Shown here: one piece after another, positions 4,077 through 37,128 of the stretch
How positions within the stretch are numbered: the first letter of the stretch is position 1
Layout of the letters: each line of letters begins with the position of its first letter
The notes under the pieces: generated by a model
Seen by the model: only the letters and a program-made list of their open reading frames with translations
Databases searched by the model: none
Told to the model about the DNA's origin: nothing
Assembly (NCBI GenBank): GCA_023379435.1
Contig: JAMCUH010000014.1
Location: 1 to 45,679 of the forward strand
Direction: 5' to 3'
Source: Thermoplasmatota archaeon
GTDB taxonomy: Archaea; Thermoplasmatota; Thermoplasmata; Thermoplasmatales; Thermoplasmataceae
DNA length: 45,679 nt
Position numbers and translations under genes: made by a program

Positions 4077-4166
4077 TGCCGGGATCGGGGATCGAACCCG
4101 AGACCTTCGGATTTCTCAGAAAGAATTCCTATGAGTCCGACGCTCTTCCAGCTGAGCCACCCCGGC
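4077..4166 (-). tRNA. tRNA-Met(CAT), elongator, with 17-nt intron
   Basis: Read on the minus strand, the acceptor GCCGGGG pairs with TCCCGGC (one G-U) and A73 follows; CCA is not encoded. The D arm is GCTC/GAGC with GG in its loop. The anticodon stem is TCGGA/TCCGA with loop CTCATAA (anticodon CAT), and the T arm is TCGGG-TTCGATC-CCCGA. The spliced length is 73 nt. The G-C-rich acceptor and separate structure fit elongator rather than initiator tRNA-Met. The gene begins 2 nt after the stop codon of the S3Ae gene on the same strand, so the two may be co-transcribed. Confidence 0.95.
4113..4129 (-). other. tRNA intron with bulge-helix-bulge splice motif
   Basis: The intron lies at the canonical 37/38 position. 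CTCA of the anticodon loop pairs with TGAG in the intron (4-bp central helix). It is flanked by the 3-nt bulges TAG (cut TA^G) and AAA (cut AA^A), and closed by GAA/TTC with a 4-nt loop. This is the textbook archaeal tRNA endonuclease substrate. Removing these 17 nt restores a normal 7-nt anticodon loop. Confidence 0.9.
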
Positions 4167-29546: not shown

Positions 29547-29556
29547 TATTATATAA
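29547..29556 (+). promoter_or_regulatory. TATA box for the riboswitch operon
   Basis: TATTATATAA is the best TATA match upstream of the aptamer. Its centre is about 25 nt before 29576, so transcription would begin right at the first base of the P1 helix. An alternative box at 29499-29508 would give a leader about 45 nt longer that includes the anti-Shine-Dalgarno segment ATCCCTC (29566-29572). Confidence 0.55.
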
Positions 29557-29575
29557 TTCCTTATAATCCCTCTTC

Positions 29576-29632
29576 TGAGGAATGGCGTTTCCTCAATAAC
29601 AACCGCCAGTAAAGCTGGATAATGACGCCTAC
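29576..29632 (+). ncRNA. fluoride riboswitch (crcB motif RNA)
   Basis: P1 is TGAGGA (29576-29581) paired with TCCTCA (29590-29595), closing the loop ATGGCGTT. P2 is CCAG (29606-29609) with CTGG (29615-29618). The pseudoknot is GGCGT (29584-29588) with ACGCC (29625-29629). The conserved strings AATAACAACCGC between P1 and P2 and AATGACGCCTAC at the 3' end match the crcB motif consensus, including the terminal CCTAC. The operon's Shine-Dalgarno GGAGGG starts 2 nt after the aptamer, so control at translation is likely. Assigned from memory of the consensus, without a covariance search. Confidence 0.92.
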
Positions 29633-29633
29633 C

Positions 29634-29640
29634 GGAGGGA
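29634..29640 (+). promoter_or_regulatory. Shine-Dalgarno site / riboswitch expression platform
   Basis: GGAGGGA lies 7 nt before ATG 29648. GAGGGA (29635-29640) can pair with TTCCTC (29589-29594), the 3' strand of P1, and GAGGGAT (29635-29641) can pair with ATCCCTC (29566-29572). Forming P1, as fluoride binding favours, would release the first of these pairings and expose the site. Confidence 0.65.
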
Positions 29641-29647
29641 TTCGGTT

Positions 29648-30589
29648 ATGGCGTTACTGTTGCTTGAGGAGACAATAACACAGCTTCTTTTTGTTATACT
29701 GGTATCTCCACTTTTTGCCGGCATAATGGCGAAGTTTAAGAGCAGGGTGGAGTCAAGAAAGGGTCAGAGCATATTTCAGCCATATTATGACATAGCCAAA
29801 TACATGAGAAAGGAGACTCTGATTCCTGCAGGATCGTCCGGTCTTTTTCTGTATCTTCCATACATAAGTTTTGGTGTTTACTGTCTCATAGCACTTATCA
29901 TCCCTGTTCTCATTCCTGCCCCCATATACTTCACTGCCAGTGCCGATTTCCTTGGCGGTGCCATATTATTCACACTGGCTGGTTTTCTGAAAATGGTGGC
30001 AGCAATTGATACGAGAAACAATTTCAGTGCCATGGGCGTGAGCAGGATCATGTCGTTCACATTCCTTGGAGAAGGTACGCTCATAACGGTCTTTTTTGCT
30101 GTTTCCCTCATAACGGGGACAAACAATCCATATGTTACCAGCGCGTACCTTGTAGATCATCCTCTTTCAAATCTCACACTTGTGCATGTATTCGCAACTC
30201 TGGCCTTTTTCATGATATTTCTGTACGAAACCGGGAAAATACCGTTGGAAAGCAGTGGCCTGCATGAACTTGGCATGATAGATGAGGGGATGAATTACGA
30301 GTACAGTGGAAAGTTGCTTGCAATAAACAAATGGTCTTCATACATGAAGCAGTACCTTCTTGGTTCAGTTCTTCTAAACGTTTTCCTGATACCATGGGGA
30401 CTCACTTCTGGAGCGTCATTCCTTCTTGATCTCCCGGTGATGTTTGGGAAATGGCTGATTCTAATTGCAATCATTGTCATAATTGAAACATCGCTATCAA
30501 AGATCAGACTTTTCAAGATTGTTGATTTCCTTGCAGCTGCCTTCACCTTCTCCATTCTGTTTTTATTTCTTACGGAGCTGATCCCATGA
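29648..30589 (+). CDS. NuoH/HyfC-like membrane subunit of Ehr-type complex
   Basis: A 313-residue polytopic protein of the complex I subunit 1 / hydrogenase-4 component C family, which couples the redox module to the ion-pumping arm. The family marks are SRKGQSIFQPYYDIAKYMRKE (58-78, quoted in part), the acidic ETGKIPLESSGLHELGMIDE loop (near 198-217) and YEYSGKLLAINKW. About eight membrane helices are visible. It is the first gene of the operon and its start is placed by the riboswitch-adjacent Shine-Dalgarno site. It ends in an ATGA overlap with the HyfE-like gene. Confidence 0.9.
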   Translation: MALLLLEETITQLLFVILVSPLFAGIMAKFKSRVESRKGQSIFQPYYDIAKYMRKETLIPAGSSGLFLYLPYISFGVYCLIALIIPVLIPAPIYFTASADFLGGAILFTLAGFLKMVAAIDTRNNFSAMGVSRIMSFTFLGEGTLITVFFAVSLITGTNNPYVTSAYLVDHPLSNLTLVHVFATLAFFMIFLYETGKIPLESSGLHELGMIDEGMNYEYSGKLLAINKWSSYMKQYLLGSVLLNVFLIPWGLTSGASFLLDLPVMFGKWLILIAIIVIIETSLSKIRLFKIVDFLAAAFTFSILFLFLTELIP

Positions 30590-31227
30590 TTATTACAAGC
30601 CTTGTTTACCTTTTATCAGCACTGGTCCTGATCACAGCATTCTATGTGCAGGGGCAGAGATATATCGTTTCCATGATAAGGGGGCAGTTCTTCCAGTCAA
30701 TTCTAATAGCAAGCATATCATTTCTCCTTGCCTGGTTGGAGCGTTCAACGGACCTCGTCATTCTTGGCATTCTGTTAATAGTTCTTCGCGGAATTATTGT
30801 TACAATTTTGCTGGAAAGAAGAGTTCCTGACAGGAAGCATTACATATTCGAGGATAATGTTAATGTTCCATATCTCTTCATTATTGATCTTATTTTCATA
30901 GTTGTTTCAGTCTTTATTATTTACTCACTGGCATTTTCATCACTCGTTCCAGATTATTCATTTCTAGGCTCATCAGATCTCCTTTTCCCCTTACTCCTAT
31001 TTTTCCAGGGTATTTTTCTAATTACATCAAGGAAAAGCACCATCACCCAGGTTATTGGCTACATAGAGGAGGAAAACTCACTTGTTCTCTTCGCTCTTTT
31101 CCTGCTGCCAATTCCTGTCATCATCGAAGCCAGTGTATTTCTGGATGTACTTGCGCTTGTGATCATATCGGTGATTGTGAACAAGGAAAAACCAGTTCAT
31201 GAGGTCATGGAGGCACTGAGAGGATGA
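30586..31227 (+). CDS. HyfE-like (hydrogenase-4 component E) membrane subunit
   Basis: A 213-residue membrane protein with about seven helices. The stretch YIVSMIRGQFFQSILIASIS followed by DLVILGILLIVLRGIIVTILLERR fits HyfE, whose N-terminal part is related to NuoK, the small channel-forming complex I subunit. The motif RGxxxT-(I/L)L in the third helix is typical. It is coupled by ATGA overlaps on both sides. Subunit identity rests on hydropathy, order in the operon and these motifs, so it is somewhat less certain than its neighbours. Confidence 0.82.
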   Translation: MIITSLVYLLSALVLITAFYVQGQRYIVSMIRGQFFQSILIASISFLLAWLERSTDLVILGILLIVLRGIIVTILLERRVPDRKHYIFEDNVNVPYLFIIDLIFIVVSVFIIYSLAFSSLVPDYSFLGSSDLLFPLLLFFQGIFLITSRKSTITQVIGYIEEENSLVLFALFLLPIPVIIEASVFLDVLALVIISVIVNKEKPVHEVMEALRG

Positions 31228-32567
31228 TAGTTTCCAATATACCATTCATTCTAATACTTCTGATACCGGGAACAGCTGCGTTGCTATATGGTGAAAGAAA
31301 TGATCAGATATCCGTGGCTGCTGGAATCATCCTTGTGGTTACCTGCATATCAATTTACTGGATGGTTCCTGCGTCACCAGATTTTTTCGTTAATCACGTT
31401 TCATGGGTATTTCTTCTAATGATTTCAGCTGTTTATCTATTATCAGCTTCTTATTCCTTAAAATACATGGGAGAAAAACCTTCCGGGATATCCAGAAAAA
31501 CCTTCTTCCTGCTTCTTAATCTTTTCACGGTTTCCATGCTGTTTAGCATTGAGGTGAACAATTACGGTTTAATGTGGGTAGGCATTGAAGCAACAACCAT
31601 TGCATCAGCACTCCTGATCATGTCAGAAAGAAGTGCTGAATCGCTTGAAGCAACATGGCGATACATAATTATTGTCTCTGCAGGAGTGGCTTTTGCATTC
31701 ATCTCCATTATCCTGATATATTACCAGTTTGGAACGCTCTCCGTGACACAGATATTGTCTATGAACAGGGCTCCAGGTCTCGTTACAAGAATCATTGTAT
31801 CGGTTGCACTTATAGGTTTTGGTACCAAGATAGGTATTTTTCCTGTACACACCTGGCTCCCTGATGCACACAGTGAGGCCCCTGCACCTGTAAGTGCCAT
31901 GTTTTCTGGCGTCCTGCTGCCATCAGCACTCTATGTTCTCTACAGAATATACGAGATTGACCCCTTCAGGGAACTTTTCATCTGGTTTGCCGTTGTTTCA
32001 ATAATATTCTCATCAATAATGCTCTCAAACCAGAGGATGTTCAAAAGAATGTTTGCCTATTCCACCATGGAGAACATGAACATTGCTCTCATCGGATTTG
32101 CCATTTTAACACCAGCGAGTATTGCAGGGGCTCTAATACTTCTCCTGTCACACAGTCTTTCCAAGGCAGGTGCATTCTATTCTTCGGGCAATATTATGAA
32201 GACTTTTGACACAAAAGAAGTTGGAGATGTCCACGGACTCATGACCACTGACCCTGGAACAGGGGCTTCCCTCCTGCTATCTTCACTTGGCGTAACGGGA
32301 GCTCCTCCTTTTGGAACCTTCTTTGGGGAAATTCTGATTTTCTATTCAATGCTTGAATACCATCTGACCGTTGAGTTTTCTCTCGTGCTTGTCTTCGTTG
32401 CACTTTCATTCATTGCGATAAATTACAATGTATCAAGGATGCTTTCCGGTGATTCTGTGAGATCAAGCTGCAGCTCATCATTGAGATATATTGCGCTCAT
32501 ATCATCAGCAATTCCCATAGCTTTAGGAATTGCCTTTCTGGGGGTGATAGGTTCTGTCATCACATGA
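31224..32567 (+). CDS. HyfF/NuoN-like proton-translocating subunit
   Basis: A 447-residue Mrp-type antiporter-like subunit with about 14 helices. The conserved ion-path residues are present: Glu122 in WVGIEATTI (helix 5) and Lys202 in FGTKIGIFPVHTWLPDAHSEAP (helix 7 and the loop after it). AMFSGVLLPSALY and the later FAYSTMENMNIALIGF are also family-typical. The retained Glu and Lys suggest that it still pumps ions. It begins with an ATGA overlap, and after it there is a 34-nt gap before the large-subunit gene. Confidence 0.9.
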   Translation: MIVSNIPFILILLIPGTAALLYGERNDQISVAAGIILVVTCISIYWMVPASPDFFVNHVSWVFLLMISAVYLLSASYSLKYMGEKPSGISRKTFFLLLNLFTVSMLFSIEVNNYGLMWVGIEATTIASALLIMSERSAESLEATWRYIIIVSAGVAFAFISIILIYYQFGTLSVTQILSMNRAPGLVTRIIVSVALIGFGTKIGIFPVHTWLPDAHSEAPAPVSAMFSGVLLPSALYVLYRIYEIDPFRELFIWFAVVSIIFSSIMLSNQRMFKRMFAYSTMENMNIALIGFAILTPASIAGALILLLSHSLSKAGAFYSSGNIMKTFDTKEVGDVHGLMTTDPGTGASLLLSSLGVTGAPPFGTFFGEILIFYSMLEYHLTVEFSLVLVFVALSFIAINYNVSRMLSGDSVRSSCSSSLRYIALISSAIPIALGIAFLGVIGSVIT

Positions 32568-32601
32568 TAAGGGAAGGTACGTCGGTTTCACACAGAATCA
32601 T

Positions 32602-33708
32602 GTGGTCTTTTCCCATGGGATGGATGATGACCACAGGAGAGAGAAGGAAAACAAAAATCTGTTACATGATCATATGAAGTTTCATTACGGGCCCACCGCT
32701 GGTGGTCTTCTTGAATCTGTTTCTATGGAATTCTCAACGCCAGGGGAGAAAATATCCTCTGTCTCCGTTAATCCGGCCTTCAAGATGCGTGAGCTCAGCA
32801 TCAGTGGCAAGAGTATTAATGATGCTCTCCTGATGGTCGAAAGGATAAACGGATATCACTCTGCCTCATTTCAGATTGGATTCCTCACTGCAGTGGAAAA
32901 AGCCCTGAACATTAATGTTCCGGATGACATCATGAATGCAAGGATACTGCAGCTGGAGCTTGAGAGGATAAGGAGCAATCTAAACGTCATGGAGAGATTG
33001 TGCTTGCCTGCCGGTTTCGGTGTCCCTGCAAACCAGCTTTCCTTTTTGAAGGAGGAGACATCAAGACTTATAGGAAATGTATCAGGGCACAGATACTTCT
33101 TTGGTACCAATCTTCCGGGGTTATGCAGAATTTCCGTAAGATCGCTGAATGATAGAATAAAAGAAGTCCTTTATGATTATGAGGATATTCTGGACGCCCT
33201 TCTTTCATCCAAGATATTCGTCAACCGTTTACAGAAGAATGGTTTCATAAAAGATGAAAGAATGATCGGACCTGCCGCCAGAGCCTCAGGTTTCCCAATT
33301 GATGCCAGGGCTGACAGTAATTCTCTAGACTATTCCAACTGCCCATTTTCTCTGACATTGAGAGATGAGGGTGATTCATTTGCAAGATTCATGGTCAGGG
33401 CGGAAGAGATCCCAGTTTCCAGGGACATCATCATTTCTTCCTCTCAAAAGATAAGAAACAACCTCATTTACGAAGAAGAATACAACGGGTCGGGTAATGG
33501 GATATCAAGAATAGAGTCACCATCAGGCGATCTCTTCTTTATGGTTTCCATTGAAGATGGCATTGTGAAATCATTGGAGTTTTCGTCTCCATCAATAGTG
33601 AACATAGGCCTATTCAAAAAGTCAATGCCTGGAAACGTTTTCACTGATTTTCATTTCAACTGGGAAAGCTTTGGAATATGGTTGTCGGAGGTTGTTCATA
33701 TAAAATGA
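32602..33708 (+). CDS. hydrogenase-like large subunit (NuoD/HyfG family) lacking [NiFe] ligands
   Basis: A 368-residue homologue of the group 4 hydrogenase large subunit and NuoD. The fold marks FHYGPTAGGLLE, MRELSISG, VERINGYHSASF (79-90) and GPAARASGFPIDAR (223-236) are present. In hydrogenases the first motif reads ERICGICS; here Asn83 and His86 replace the two cysteines. The C-terminal DPCxxC is replaced by ESFGIWLSEV. So it cannot hold the Ni-Fe centre. It is the core of an Ehr-type complex. The start is uncertain: GTG 32602 is listed, but ATG 32620 (7th codon) or ATG 32674 (25th) are possible. Confidence 0.88.
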   Translation: MVFSHGMDDDHRREKENKNLLHDHMKFHYGPTAGGLLESVSMEFSTPGEKISSVSVNPAFKMRELSISGKSINDALLMVERINGYHSASFQIGFLTAVEKALNINVPDDIMNARILQLELERIRSNLNVMERLCLPAGFGVPANQLSFLKEETSRLIGNVSGHRYFFGTNLPGLCRISVRSLNDRIKEVLYDYEDILDALLSSKIFVNRLQKNGFIKDERMIGPAARASGFPIDARADSNSLDYSNCPFSLTLRDEGDSFARFMVRAEEIPVSRDIIISSSQKIRNNLIYEEEYNGSGNGISRIESPSGDLFFMVSIEDGIVKSLEFSSPSIVNIGLFKKSMPGNVFTDFHFNWESFGIWLSEVVHIK

Positions 33709-34334
33709 CAAAAAACTGGTTTTTAAGGGGAACATTGAAAGGTATCAAGACGGAAAAGTTTCCGGCAGCGGATCCTCTGAATCCTCCCCTCTGGCCATCA
33801 AGACTTAATGGATCTGGGGATGTGCAGTGCCCAACAGATGCCATTAAGGACGGCATTTGGGATGAGCAAAGATGCATTTTCTGCAGACGCTGTCTTCCTA
33901 ACTACAAGCCAACAGAGGAACAGGATATTTTCACCGTGAGAGAGAACACAAATGAGTTCAGAAAATCACTCAACATTTATTTTGTAGACACAGGTTCCTG
34001 CGGCTCCTGCAATACCGAGCTCTCAACGATATTCTCGCCAAGATATGATGCAAACAGGTTAAGTATATTTGCAGTGAACACGCCGAGGCATGCCGATGTT
34101 CTTGTTTTAATGGGGGTTTTAACAGAAATGATGAAAGAGCCACTTTATAAAGCTCTGGAAGCTATGCCCGAACCGAAGGCTATTGTTCTTCTGGGAACAT
34201 GCAGCATCACTGGCGGAATCATGGGAAAAGGTGTTTTACTGCCTGAGGATGCAAATCTGATACTTGCGGGGTGCCCACCGAGTCCATACACAATATTGGA
34301 AGGCCTTGAAAGACTCAAGGGTGGAAAAAAATGA
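33705..34334 (+). CDS. fused ferredoxin-NuoB small subunit of Ehr-type complex
   Basis: A 209-residue protein joining two modules usually encoded separately. Residues 1-75 look like a cut-down HyfH/MbhN ferredoxin (start WFLRGTLKGIKTEKFP) with Cys42 (CPTDAI) and Cys57-x2-Cys60-x2-Cys63, enough for one [4Fe-4S]. Residues 88-209 are the HycG/NuoB small subunit, with Cys99-x2-Cys102 (DTGSCGSCNTE), Cys166 (LLGTCSITGG) and Cys190 (AGCPPSP), the full proximal cluster set. ATG 33705 overlaps the upstream stop as ATGA with GGAGG upstream; an in-frame ATG at 33678 would overlap further. Confidence 0.88.
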   Translation: MTKNWFLRGTLKGIKTEKFPAADPLNPPLWPSRLNGSGDVQCPTDAIKDGIWDEQRCIFCRRCLPNYKPTEEQDIFTVRENTNEFRKSLNIYFVDTGSCGSCNTELSTIFSPRYDANRLSIFAVNTPRHADVLVLMGVLTEMMKEPLYKALEAMPEPKAIVLLGTCSITGGIMGKGVLLPEDANLILAGCPPSPYTILEGLERLKGGKK

Positions 34335-36088
34335 TCTTACTGGAATATACAGAATTCATCATTCTAATTCTGTCCTTCATTTCAGCACTTATATCGGTGT
34401 ACTGGAGAAGAACAGGCTACATAATTATAATAATTGCATCAGTGCTTCTCTCTGTATCTGCATTTACCCTTCATTCATACATCACATATTTTGCCTTGAT
34501 AGCCTCAATATCATGGATCATAGTATCTGTCTTTTCCATTTCATATTCAAAAGACTATGGAAAATGGATAACTCCACTATTTGATCTCACCATAGCTGGA
34601 ATGGTTCTCATACTTTTCTCTGAATCATATCTGATTTTCATTGTCGGCTTCGAGATAATGACCATGCCTGCATATGTTACGATTCTCAAAAACAGAAGCA
34701 ATCATGCACCCTCCTTCATCTTCATGGCCTTCGGGGAATTGAGTACAATGTTTCTCATTCTGGGGGCGGTTATATCAATGGTATCTCATGGGGGATCACT
34801 GTCGTTTGTTAATAATTCCAACGATTATGTTCTTCTCTTTTTTTCCATAGGTTGCATGTTAAAAATGGGAATTATGCCATTCATGATTTCGGAGTGGCTA
34901 CCCATAGCTCATGGGAGCGCTCCTGCCAATGACTCTGCCATTTTCAGCGGCACTATGACCCTCATGGGTGTGTACGGTATCTACCGTGTTATGTTGTTAA
35001 GTCCTGCAAGTATGTACTTGGGCCTATTCCTGATGTTCGTTGGTGCAATGACCGTTTTCTTCTCTTCACTTTATGCCTATGTTTCTCAAAACATGAAGGT
35101 TCTTGGGGGATTCAGCACTATGGAGAATAACGGTGCCATCCTGTGCGCCATGGGTCTTTATGTATCCGTTACAGACACTATCTTGAGGGAGTTCCTTCTC
35201 AGTGCCATAATCATTTTTGCCATGGCCCATTCCATAGCAAAATCCGGTCTTTTCCTGAGCATAGGATCTACCAGATCAGAATATTTTGGAGAGAAGAGTG
35301 CAAGGAAAAGAGGCCACGATCTTGGTACCTTGCTCATTGTAATGTCGCTTTCAGGACTGTTTCCAACAATTGGAGGACTTGCGGTCTGGATGCTACTGGA
35401 ATCTTTCTTCATGGGTGCATACATCCACGGGATTATTGGGATAGCAAGCATATCAGTGGGTAGCGTTATCGCCCTGGCAGAAGGTTTTGGTTCTGCTGCC
35501 ATGCTTAAACTGTTCTATTTCTCAGGCGGGAACAACGTTGAAAATAAGGTTAACAGAAAAGAAAAAGACGTTCTTCTGTTTACAGGCATCATACTTGTCG
35601 CACTGTTCCTCATTTCAACCTTATTGATTCTACCGGAATATGTAGCAGGTCTTCCCAGCGTGCTTGTTTTTAATGGATTCACTGTGGAGTCTTCCGTCAC
35701 CGGTTCAGATTTCGGTCTTGTTTCTCCCGTTTACGTTTTTTCTCTTGTGGCCTTATTTTCCTTAATTGCCTTCGCCTTATTCGGCAGACCCAGGGGAAGG
35801 GTGGTACCAAGGTGGGAGGGTGGCATCACGACACTTGAAAACTATACCTCCTCAGGTTATTCAAACAACATAAGAATCATGCTTCGCTCCATACTGCGCA
35901 CCAAGATATCCGAAGATAGGATCAGTGTGAACAACATTTTCTGGTCATTCATGGTTTTTTCGGGAAGAGCATATAGAAAATTCGGTGGATTTTTTGGAAG
36001 AAAATTCATGAACAGTTCAGTATCCTGGTATATGATCTACATGATCATTGCCTTCATTTTTGTTCTTTTCACTGCTGCACTCCTATGA
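34331..36088 (+). CDS. HyfB / NuoL-M-like proton-translocating subunit
   Basis: A 585-residue Mrp/NuoM-like protein with about 14-16 helices. The ion-path residues are Glu108 in FIVGFEIMTMPAY and Lys178 in CMLKMGIMPFMISEWLPIAH; HGSAPANDSAIFSGTMT follows as in HyfB. The C-terminal part has PRWEGGITTLENYTSSGYSN and a long amphipathic stretch, then a last helix, like HyfB proteins. It starts with an ATGA overlap and is the last gene of the operon. Two such antiporter-like subunits in one complex suggest transport of more than one ion per turnover (inference). Confidence 0.9.
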   Translation: MILLEYTEFIILILSFISALISVYWRRTGYIIIIIASVLLSVSAFTLHSYITYFALIASISWIIVSVFSISYSKDYGKWITPLFDLTIAGMVLILFSESYLIFIVGFEIMTMPAYVTILKNRSNHAPSFIFMAFGELSTMFLILGAVISMVSHGGSLSFVNNSNDYVLLFFSIGCMLKMGIMPFMISEWLPIAHGSAPANDSAIFSGTMTLMGVYGIYRVMLLSPASMYLGLFLMFVGAMTVFFSSLYAYVSQNMKVLGGFSTMENNGAILCAMGLYVSVTDTILREFLLSAIIIFAMAHSIAKSGLFLSIGSTRSEYFGEKSARKRGHDLGTLLIVMSLSGLFPTIGGLAVWMLLESFFMGAYIHGIIGIASISVGSVIALAEGFGSAAMLKLFYFSGGNNVENKVNRKEKDVLLFTGIILVALFLISTLLILPEYVAGLPSVLVFNGFTVESSVTGSDFGLVSPVYVFSLVALFSLIAFALFGRPRGRVVPRWEGGITTLENYTSSGYSNNIRIMLRSILRTKISEDRISVNNIFWSFMVFSGRAYRKFGGFFGRKFMNSSVSWYMIYMIIAFIFVLFTAALL

Positions 36089-36136
36089 TCAATTCCATTA
36101 AATAAAGTGTGAGTAAGATTTAATTGCACGTATTCG

Positions 36137-36144
36137 TTTATATA
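36137..36144 (+). promoter_or_regulatory. TATA-like box near the GT2-like gene start
   Basis: TTTATATA lies just inside the upstream end of the open frame. If used, transcription would start near 36165, after the candidate TTG start codons; a second box TTAAATAAA (36098-36106) fits the TTG 36148 start better. The start of this gene is therefore unsettled. Confidence 0.3.
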
Positions 36145-36147
36145 TTA

Positions 36148-37128
36148 TTGGAATCTAGTGCCAAGAGTCAAAGAAGCAATGAATTTGCGGTTATTTCGAC
36201 ATTTCAGGAGCCAACATTTTCATTCATTGCCAATGTCGGAGGGCATAAGGTTCTTGAGAAATCCATTCTCAGCATAGAGGACATTGGGGATGAGCTTGGT
36301 TCAAGATACGAGATCTTGCTTCCCGTCGATTCGAAAACAAAGAACTGGCACTTCATTAGGAGCCTTGCAGGAAAGGTTGAATTCCTGAGGCTCATGCAGT
36401 TCGGTAGACAGAGTGTCGGATTCCAGAAAAGCGTGATGCAGAAGGCCTCTTCCGGCTCATACATAGTTTTGTTCAATCCTGACACCATATATGACATAGG
36501 ATTTGCAGATATAATCCATAATTTTTGTCAGTACAACGGCAGCCAGATATTATATTCAGAACTTCTGATTATACCATCTTTTCTTTTCAACAGATCCGGC
36601 ACCTGGCGAGACCTTAACAATGGTGAGGATATCGACCTTCTGGCCAGGATCATGTCTCTGGCAGAGGTTATCGTCTATAACCCTCCTGATAGAGTACTTA
36701 GGATCGAAAGCAATGAGCCTGTGATATATACACCCGGCAAGATTCCAAAAAGTCTTGGGTTATTGTATCAGCTCCTGATTAAACAGAGGGACCAGATCAT
36801 TGCACTAAATTACACCTGGAAGAATATTTCCTTCTTTTCGAGACTGGAACGCAGAAAGGGCCTCACCAGAATGTTATTGCTCCAAATTGCATACATCCTT
36901 TCAAGATTCAGCAGTGAGAAACCGTATGGTGGAAAAAGCAACAACTATTCCAGTATAATGGACAAGATCCTTGAGTCACTCATCGTTGAGGATTATAAAA
37001 GATTCTCAGGCTTTGTTGGTAGACCCAGGATATCCATAGGAACAAAGGACCTTGAATTTCTGAAGATGAACGGAAAGGTGTGGGGAAAAACGAAGGAACC
37101 CATAGAGAATTTCGTCGAGCGCCAGTAA
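36148..37128 (+). CDS. GT2-like glycosyltransferase, soluble
   Basis: A protein of about 326 residues with GT-A features: a first strand SNEFAVISTFQEPTF, a second YEILLPVDSKTKN, LFNPDTIYDIGF where GT2 enzymes have DxD, and NNGEDIDLLARIM matching the catalytic ED. No membrane segment is visible. NPDT keeps one Asp, so metal binding may differ from the norm. The open frame begins at TTG 36124; I list TTG 36148, and no ATG is available near the N-terminus. Given the surface protein, GmhB and GtrA genes downstream, a role in surface glycan assembly is likely. Confidence 0.62.
   Translation: MESSAKSQRSNEFAVISTFQEPTFSFIANVGGHKVLEKSILSIEDIGDELGSRYEILLPVDSKTKNWHFIRSLAGKVEFLRLMQFGRQSVGFQKSVMQKASSGSYIVLFNPDTIYDIGFADIIHNFCQYNGSQILYSELLIIPSFLFNRSGTWRDLNNGEDIDLLARIMSLAEVIVYNPPDRVLRIESNEPVIYTPGKIPKSLGLLYQLLIKQRDQIIALNYTWKNISFFSRLERRKGLTRMLLLQIAYILSRFSSEKPYGGKSNNYSSIMDKILESLIVEDYKRFSGFVGRPRISIGTKDLEFLKMNGKVWGKTKEPIENFVERQ

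Follow-up and report, generated by a model that had tools for sequence, protein, structure and literature searches.

A fluoride riboswitch ahead of Ehr-type complex operons in Thermoplasmatales and Sulfolobales

We analysed a 45,679-nucleotide stretch of DNA (hereafter the window; contig JAMCUH010000014.1, positions 1 to 45,679, of the Thermoplasmatota archaeon assembly GCA_023379435.1, order Thermoplasmatales) in which a fluoride riboswitch directly precedes a six-gene operon for a complex-I-like membrane complex of the Ehr type. The computation supports the aptamer, the operon, a conserved linkage between the two, the loss of the NiFe ligands and intact proton-pump residues. Because riboswitch and operon stay paired across many lineages and two gene orders, fluoride control of the operon is very likely, judging from sequence. 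We infer the ON direction of the switch, the electron donor and acceptor, pumping and the physiological role. The explanation as a whole, a translational ON riboswitch governing a six-subunit Ehr-type redox proton pump that acts against the acid load from hydrogen fluoride (HF), is given roughly even odds (probability about 0.5).

The aptamer and the operon behind it

A first-pass annotation of the window had placed a fluoride aptamer with P1, P2 and a pseudoknot at about 29576-29632 and proposed an Infernal search with the Rfam model RF01734. That search (cmscan) returned a significant forward-strand match at 29569-29638 (37.6 bits, E 6e-07; gathering score 34 bits) over the full model length (1-64), and all three elements were recovered:

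29569-29638, + strand: fluoride riboswitch aptamer (RF01734), above the gathering score, with covariation across 40 relatives
29577-29594, + strand: P1 hairpin, 5 bp (29577-29581/29590-29594), from the RF01734 match and covariation
29584-29588, + strand: pseudoknot 5′ strand GGCGU, in the P1 loop, pairing with ACGCC at 29625-29629
29606-29618, + strand: P2 hairpin (29606-29609/29615-29618), from the RF01734 match and covariation
29625-29629, + strand: pseudoknot 3′ strand ACGCC, lying within 29623-29629, which pairs with 29650-29656 in the predicted unbound fold

The aptamer lies directly 5′ of hyfC on the same strand; its conserved CUAC ends at 29632 and the Shine-Dalgarno GGAGG starts at 29634, the 2-nt distance that had been noted. 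Covariation was assessed in 40 aligned Ehr-linked aptamers against shuffles and slid structures. Standard pairs occupied 96.1% of cells in the native alignment, compared with 78.8% after shuffling and 34–57% with slid structures; both sides had changed in 10 of the 13 pairs, and the pseudoknot was 99% paired. The pseudoknot sequence switches en bloc between target classes: GGCGU/ACGCC, GACGU/ACGUC or GAUGU/ACAUC where the target is Ehr, GGAGU/ACUCC where it is MutS, and GGGGC/GCUCC or GGAAU/AUUCC where it is a cassette of small genes. By model match and covariation, the element at 29569-29638 is confirmed as a true member of the fluoride riboswitch family. A lone match only modestly over the family cut-off might have been chance or a decayed remnant ahead of an uncontrolled operon, but this is hardly credible, being already contradicted by the compensatory changes and by recurrence in several lineages and independently of gene order. 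At one related locus (L084, 128-240), the aptamer's 3′ half (UUGAUAACGCCUACGAAUGA) recurs in near-identical form between the aptamer and the hyfC start, a potential second pseudoknot 3′ strand.

The operon runs in the order C-E-F-G-IH-B, and the gene set and homologies given by the first-pass annotation (HyfC-E-F-G-(H/I fusion)-B) held for all six genes:

29648-30589, + strand: hyfC/nuoH-like membrane subunit (PF00146, 100.5 bits), with ATG at 29648
30586-31227, + strand: hyfE-like membrane subunit, from its conserved place in the operon and a sub-cut-off match to the NCBIfam hydrogenase 4 membrane subunit (35.5 bits)
31224-32567, + strand: hyfF-like antiporter/proton-pump subunit (PF00361; NCBIfam hydrogenase 4 subunit F, above cut-off)
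32602-33708, + strand: hyfG/nuoD-like large subunit without the NiFe cysteines (PF00346)
33678-34334, + strand: ferredoxin-like domain fused to a hyfI/nuoB-like small subunit (PF01058), true start probably at 33705
34331-36088, + strand: hyfB-like antiporter/proton-pump subunit (PF00361; NCBIfam hydrogenase 4 subunit B, above cut-off)

The nearest solved relatives of the HyfG-like protein are the large subunits of the Pyrococcus membrane-bound hydrogenase (MBH) and of Escherichia coli formate hydrogenlyase (FHL). None of 59 orthologous large subunits has a CxxC motif anywhere, and the position of the nickel-binding motif reads R-I-N-G-[FY]-H in most of them. HypD is the maturase required for making the NiFe centre; no match over the cut-off was found in the window's archaeal family, nor in the window's own genome, which is 69% complete. 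Among the six operon subunits we found neither a formate dehydrogenase family nor a CrcB or CLC domain, and a search within the operon gave no NuoE/F/G for NADH input. Across 14 orthologues, the cysteines of the NuoB-type cluster and of one [4Fe-4S] cluster do not vary; the channel glutamate and two lysines are invariant in the HyfF-like and HyfB-like subunits.

By these features, the complex is not a working [NiFe] hydrogenase. It is complex-I-like and lacks the metal-binding cysteines of the large subunit, as has been described for Ehr complexes, whose function is unknown (PMC7304191, PMC10284858), and an Ehr-type assignment is therefore supported, by description. The catalytically altered, Ehr-type nature proposed from the letters of the window is thus borne out. 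Usual annotation would instead make it a genuine fluoride-controlled hydrogenase or formate hydrogenlyase, and NCBIfam does name hydrogenase 4 subunits B and F above cut-off, but with the NiFe cysteines, the family's HypD and the operon's formate dehydrogenase all missing, that reading is already contradicted and scarcely tenable. A candidate seventh operon gene (36124-37128) was rejected, its place behind the operon not being conserved among relatives.

Distribution of the linkage

To survey the window's order, every RF01734 match in 117 Thermoplasmatales genomes was taken with its downstream DNA. The riboswitch is present in 91 of these genomes. Directly downstream of 69 of the 121 matches lies hyfC, nearly always leading the full C-E-F-G-IH-B operon where the contig permits; 22 matches precede a MutS-like gene pair, and most of the remainder a two-gene cassette for small proteins predicted to be coiled coils. 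Large-subunit searches separated Ehr matches (above 250 bits) from a weaker class at about 150 bits, probably the NuoD of complex I. Ehr occurs in 72 genomes, 64 of which showed an Ehr-linked riboswitch in the first scan and two more at full sensitivity; the remaining Ehr genomes are mostly cut by contig ends, with G072 and G035 lacking a clear riboswitch. In one genus, four genomes have neither riboswitch nor Ehr and a fifth has both. A Fisher test of co-distribution was set aside, the Ehr-linked riboswitch class being defined by its position next to hyfC. The first-pass annotation had called such a pairing unusual in an archaeon; it is instead the rule in Thermoplasmatales and common also in Sulfolobaceae.

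RF01734 was found in 24 of 214 Sulfolobales genomes, and 20 of the 24 riboswitches precede a complete or near-complete Ehr operon (a few genes are frameshifted). Gene C leads in 12 of these operons and gene F in eight, the riboswitch standing ahead of whichever comes first; the other four riboswitches precede MutS-like genes (two), a HyfF fragment (one) or no assigned gene (one). A tree built from three concatenated subunits groups the F-first operons in a single clade (support 0.98), nested within that of Sulfolobales (0.99), which indicates that the operon was rearranged while the riboswitch was kept in front (ORDER-INDEPENDENCE).

A wider collection scan gave 64 named loci, from Ferroplasma acidarmanus, Acidiplasma aeolicum, Cuniculiplasma, Sysuiplasma, uncultured Thermoplasmata, Metallosphaera javensis and two Micrarchaeota-binned contigs. 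Of the 53 loci that retain the operon start, 49 have a riboswitch there according to a model built from the 40 aptamers, a count that holds partly by construction because the model includes aptamers from some of these loci. Rfam's own model scores the operon starts of the Micrarchaeota contigs (58.2 and 29.9 bits), Metallosphaera (51.2 bits) and, weakly, Sysuiplasma (19.7 bits), so these cases are independent of the 40-aptamer model; the Micrarchaeota contigs could be mis-binned. The four loci without a riboswitch are all second operon copies, and the genomes concerned also contain a copy that has one. Second Ehr operons with no detectable riboswitch (L208, L209, L213, L218) are nested in the tree among riboswitch-bearing copies and offer a natural comparison for loss of regulation. 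In the rest of the phylum, the riboswitch stood before crcB and other genes at the 13 loci examined, and before Ehr at none of them. The linkage, as far as sequence matches place it, spans Thermoplasmatales, Sulfolobales and probably Micrarchaeota.

CrcB is found in only four of the 117 genomes of the order and in none of the riboswitch-bearing Sulfolobales genomes. The absence of crcB and clc from the window had been remarked upon, and CrcB was not found anywhere in the window's own genome (1.15 Mb, 69% complete). The sole CLC protein found there is encoded on another contig and was rejected as a CLC-F, since its score against Cl-/H+ CLC structures (104 bits) exceeds that against the CLC-F structure (50 bits). 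Within the order, just one CrcB-linked riboswitch was seen (L041, G090 contig 2), on a possibly contaminating contig.

One other RF01734 match is present in the window's genome, on contig 44 (L153, 4431 onward; 33.4 bits, just below the cut-off), with P1 and pseudoknot intact, ahead of two related genes, one of them for a MutS domain V protein. At 21 further loci of the order a riboswitch stands before such a MutS domain V-like pair, its pseudoknot always GGAGU/ACUCC. Three other families of this order have the riboswitch before a conserved pair of small, probably coiled-coil proteins (L044, L046, L047, L050, L052, L055, L076, L086, L088, L091, L099, L107, L036, L042 and others), possibly a new fluoride-response pair. 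Elsewhere in the window, a tRNA gene lies at 4077-4166 (− strand); its Rfam alignment skips 19 bases of the anticodon arm, probably an intron.

The expression platform

Three further elements belong to the region ahead of and around the hyfC start:

29550-29557, + strand: TATA-box-like element (TATATAAT), probable promoter, from sequence and an A+T peak in relatives
29634-29638, + strand: Shine-Dalgarno GGAGG of hyfC, from sequence
29648-29673, + strand: start codon region, predicted expression platform, from a repeat of the aptamer and complementarity to it

Among 67 related leaders, A+T content peaks about as far upstream of P1. The RNA start is predicted near 29575-29580, at the edge of P1, so the leader would be almost wholly aptamer and ribosome-binding site. 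The start region carries AUGGCGUU, duplicating the AUGGCGUU of the aptamer at 29582-29589, and could therefore rival it in pairing with the pseudoknot 3′ strand; a similar AUGGCGUC is present at several Sulfolobales starts. In the predicted unbound fold, 29623-29629 (UGACGCC) pairs with 29650-29656 (GGCGUUA), and aptamer positions 29587-29601 pair with 29658-29673, to which they are complementary. This aptamer-start pairing is stronger in the window leader than in about 99 of 100 shuffles.

Native combinations of aptamer and start were also compared with combinations swapped between species and with a reversed control (5000 permutations). Across 68 leaders of the order, pairing energies were -25.5 kcal/mol for native, -21.6 for swapped and -20.1 for reversed combinations, with 0 of 5000 permutations as low; the MutS leaders gave p = 0.01. 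Formation of the aptamer opened the start region in 53/68 and 15/19 leaders, a weak test because blocked bases release their partners. Taken together, the modelled pairing favours a translational ON switch.

Proposed role and relation to known systems

Without fluoride, strands of the aptamer would base-pair at the front of hyfC, with its ribosome-binding site, its start codon or its first codons, and keep its translation low; in the window, the pseudoknot 3′ strand UGACGCC would bind GGCGUUA, located at the start codon, and early codons would be bound by P1/J bases. Binding of fluoride and Mg would close the pseudoknot and free the start site. The resulting complex, which retains sites for two Fe-S clusters together with a NuoH-like subunit and two proton-pump subunits, would most likely be fed electrons by a soluble carrier, for example ferredoxin, and pump protons out, offsetting the acid load and the loss of proton-motive force caused by HF entry in acidic habitats. 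As a weak acid, HF passes into cells when the pH is low and acidifies them; the commonest targets of fluoride riboswitches are exporters, followed by Na+/H+ antiporters (PMC11139923). A redox-driven proton pump would meet the same need as the antiporters.

Several points weigh against this explanation. Antiporter-like subunits are by themselves no proof of pumping. The swap test was not significant in Sulfolobales (p 0.32), perhaps owing to hairpins there that draw on bases beyond the aptamer tail and were noticed by eye only. In the window leader the AUG itself is no more open in the bound-like fold, and if the RNA included bases upstream of 29573, the Shine-Dalgarno would be masked by AAUCCCUC/GAGGGAUU in the bound state, as in an OFF switch. 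Because the assembly is 69% complete, the absence of an exporter from the window's own genome is uncertain; one could be missing from the assembly.

Among the alternatives, a metabolic bypass seems unlikely: fluoride would block enolase and other enzymes, and Ehr would re-balance electron carriers with pumping as a by-product. Fluoride alters energy metabolism in several microbes (PMC11139923) and the complex has a ferredoxin-like domain, but such a bypass leaves unexplained why the linkage occurs in acidophiles and not elsewhere in the phylum, in the sample examined. We consider it improbable that the riboswitch turns the operon OFF, with a fluoride-dependent helix (29565-29572/29635-29642) hiding the Shine-Dalgarno. 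The eight-base complementarity is real, and with upstream bases included the Shine-Dalgarno is unpaired at 0.42 in the unbound and 0.03 in the bound-like fold; yet the TATA-like element sets the RNA start downstream of the 5′ strand of this helix, the co-varying aptamer-start pairing of relatives favours ON, and known fluoride riboswitches mostly activate (PMC11139923).

Distinctly improbable, finally, is export of fluoride by the complex, which would make it a redox-driven F-/H+ or HF pump replacing Fluc and CLC-F in extreme acidophiles. The Ehr operon is the main riboswitch target in an order nearly devoid of CrcB, and exporters are the commonest targets elsewhere (PMC11139923), but the fold holds no known fluoride-transport motif, its pump residues match those of proton pumps, and export may instead fall to a distant CLC or to some other exporter. 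If true, export by the complex would represent a third kind of fluoride exporter, built on a complex I scaffold in archaea of strong acid.

Returning to the translational ON switch and proton pump, the association of the riboswitch with a "formate hydrogen lyase" gene is not new. The crcB motif was reported before such genes and mutS in 2010 (Weinberg 2010, PMC2864571), as the first-pass annotation had indicated for formate hydrogenlyase-type genes, and a 2024 review names formate hydrogenlyase among the common targets, reading it as an anaerobic energy enzyme (PMC11139923). What is new, on sequence grounds, is the lack of a catalytic NiFe site in the archaeal targets examined, the breadth of the linkage, its survival through rearrangement and its occurrence where Fluc is rare, together with the aptamer/start co-variation and the likely expression platform. 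A fluoride sensor kept across lineages and through gene-order change suggests a concrete role, in fluoride/HF stress, for a complex of unknown function, and suggests how archaea of strong acid handle fluoride almost without Fluc channels. It also corrects the "formate hydrogenlyase" or "hydrogenase 4" annotation in Ferroplasma, Acidiplasma and Sulfolobales genomes. In heap-leaching waters, fluoride reaches up to ~2 g/L and inhibits the microbes used there (PMC5023253).

Compared with the RF01734 of Weinberg 2010, the aptamer is the same (P1, P2, pseudoknot), as is the target annotation, and the window's genome also has a MutS-linked copy; whereas the best known examples use terminators, the platform here appears translational with start-site mimicry, and the target was found to have no NiFe site. 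With described Ehr complexes (PMC7304191, PMC10284858) the complex shares, by description, complex-I-like membrane subunits and a large subunit without CxxC, but here the operon is under a riboswitch and the ferredoxin-like domain and small subunit are fused. Group 4 [NiFe] hydrogenases (Hyf/FHL, Pyrococcus MBH) provide the nearest large-subunit relatives and the same membrane architecture, but NiFe ligands, HypD and formate dehydrogenase are missing here. Respiratory complex I (NDH-1) has homologous pump and connecting modules, whereas this operon has no NADH-input module, and the second, weaker large-subunit match in these genomes is probably their own NuoD. Like the Na+/H+ antiporters under fluoride riboswitches (PMC11139923), the complex would be a membrane ion pump against acidification, but a multi-subunit and probably redox-driven one.

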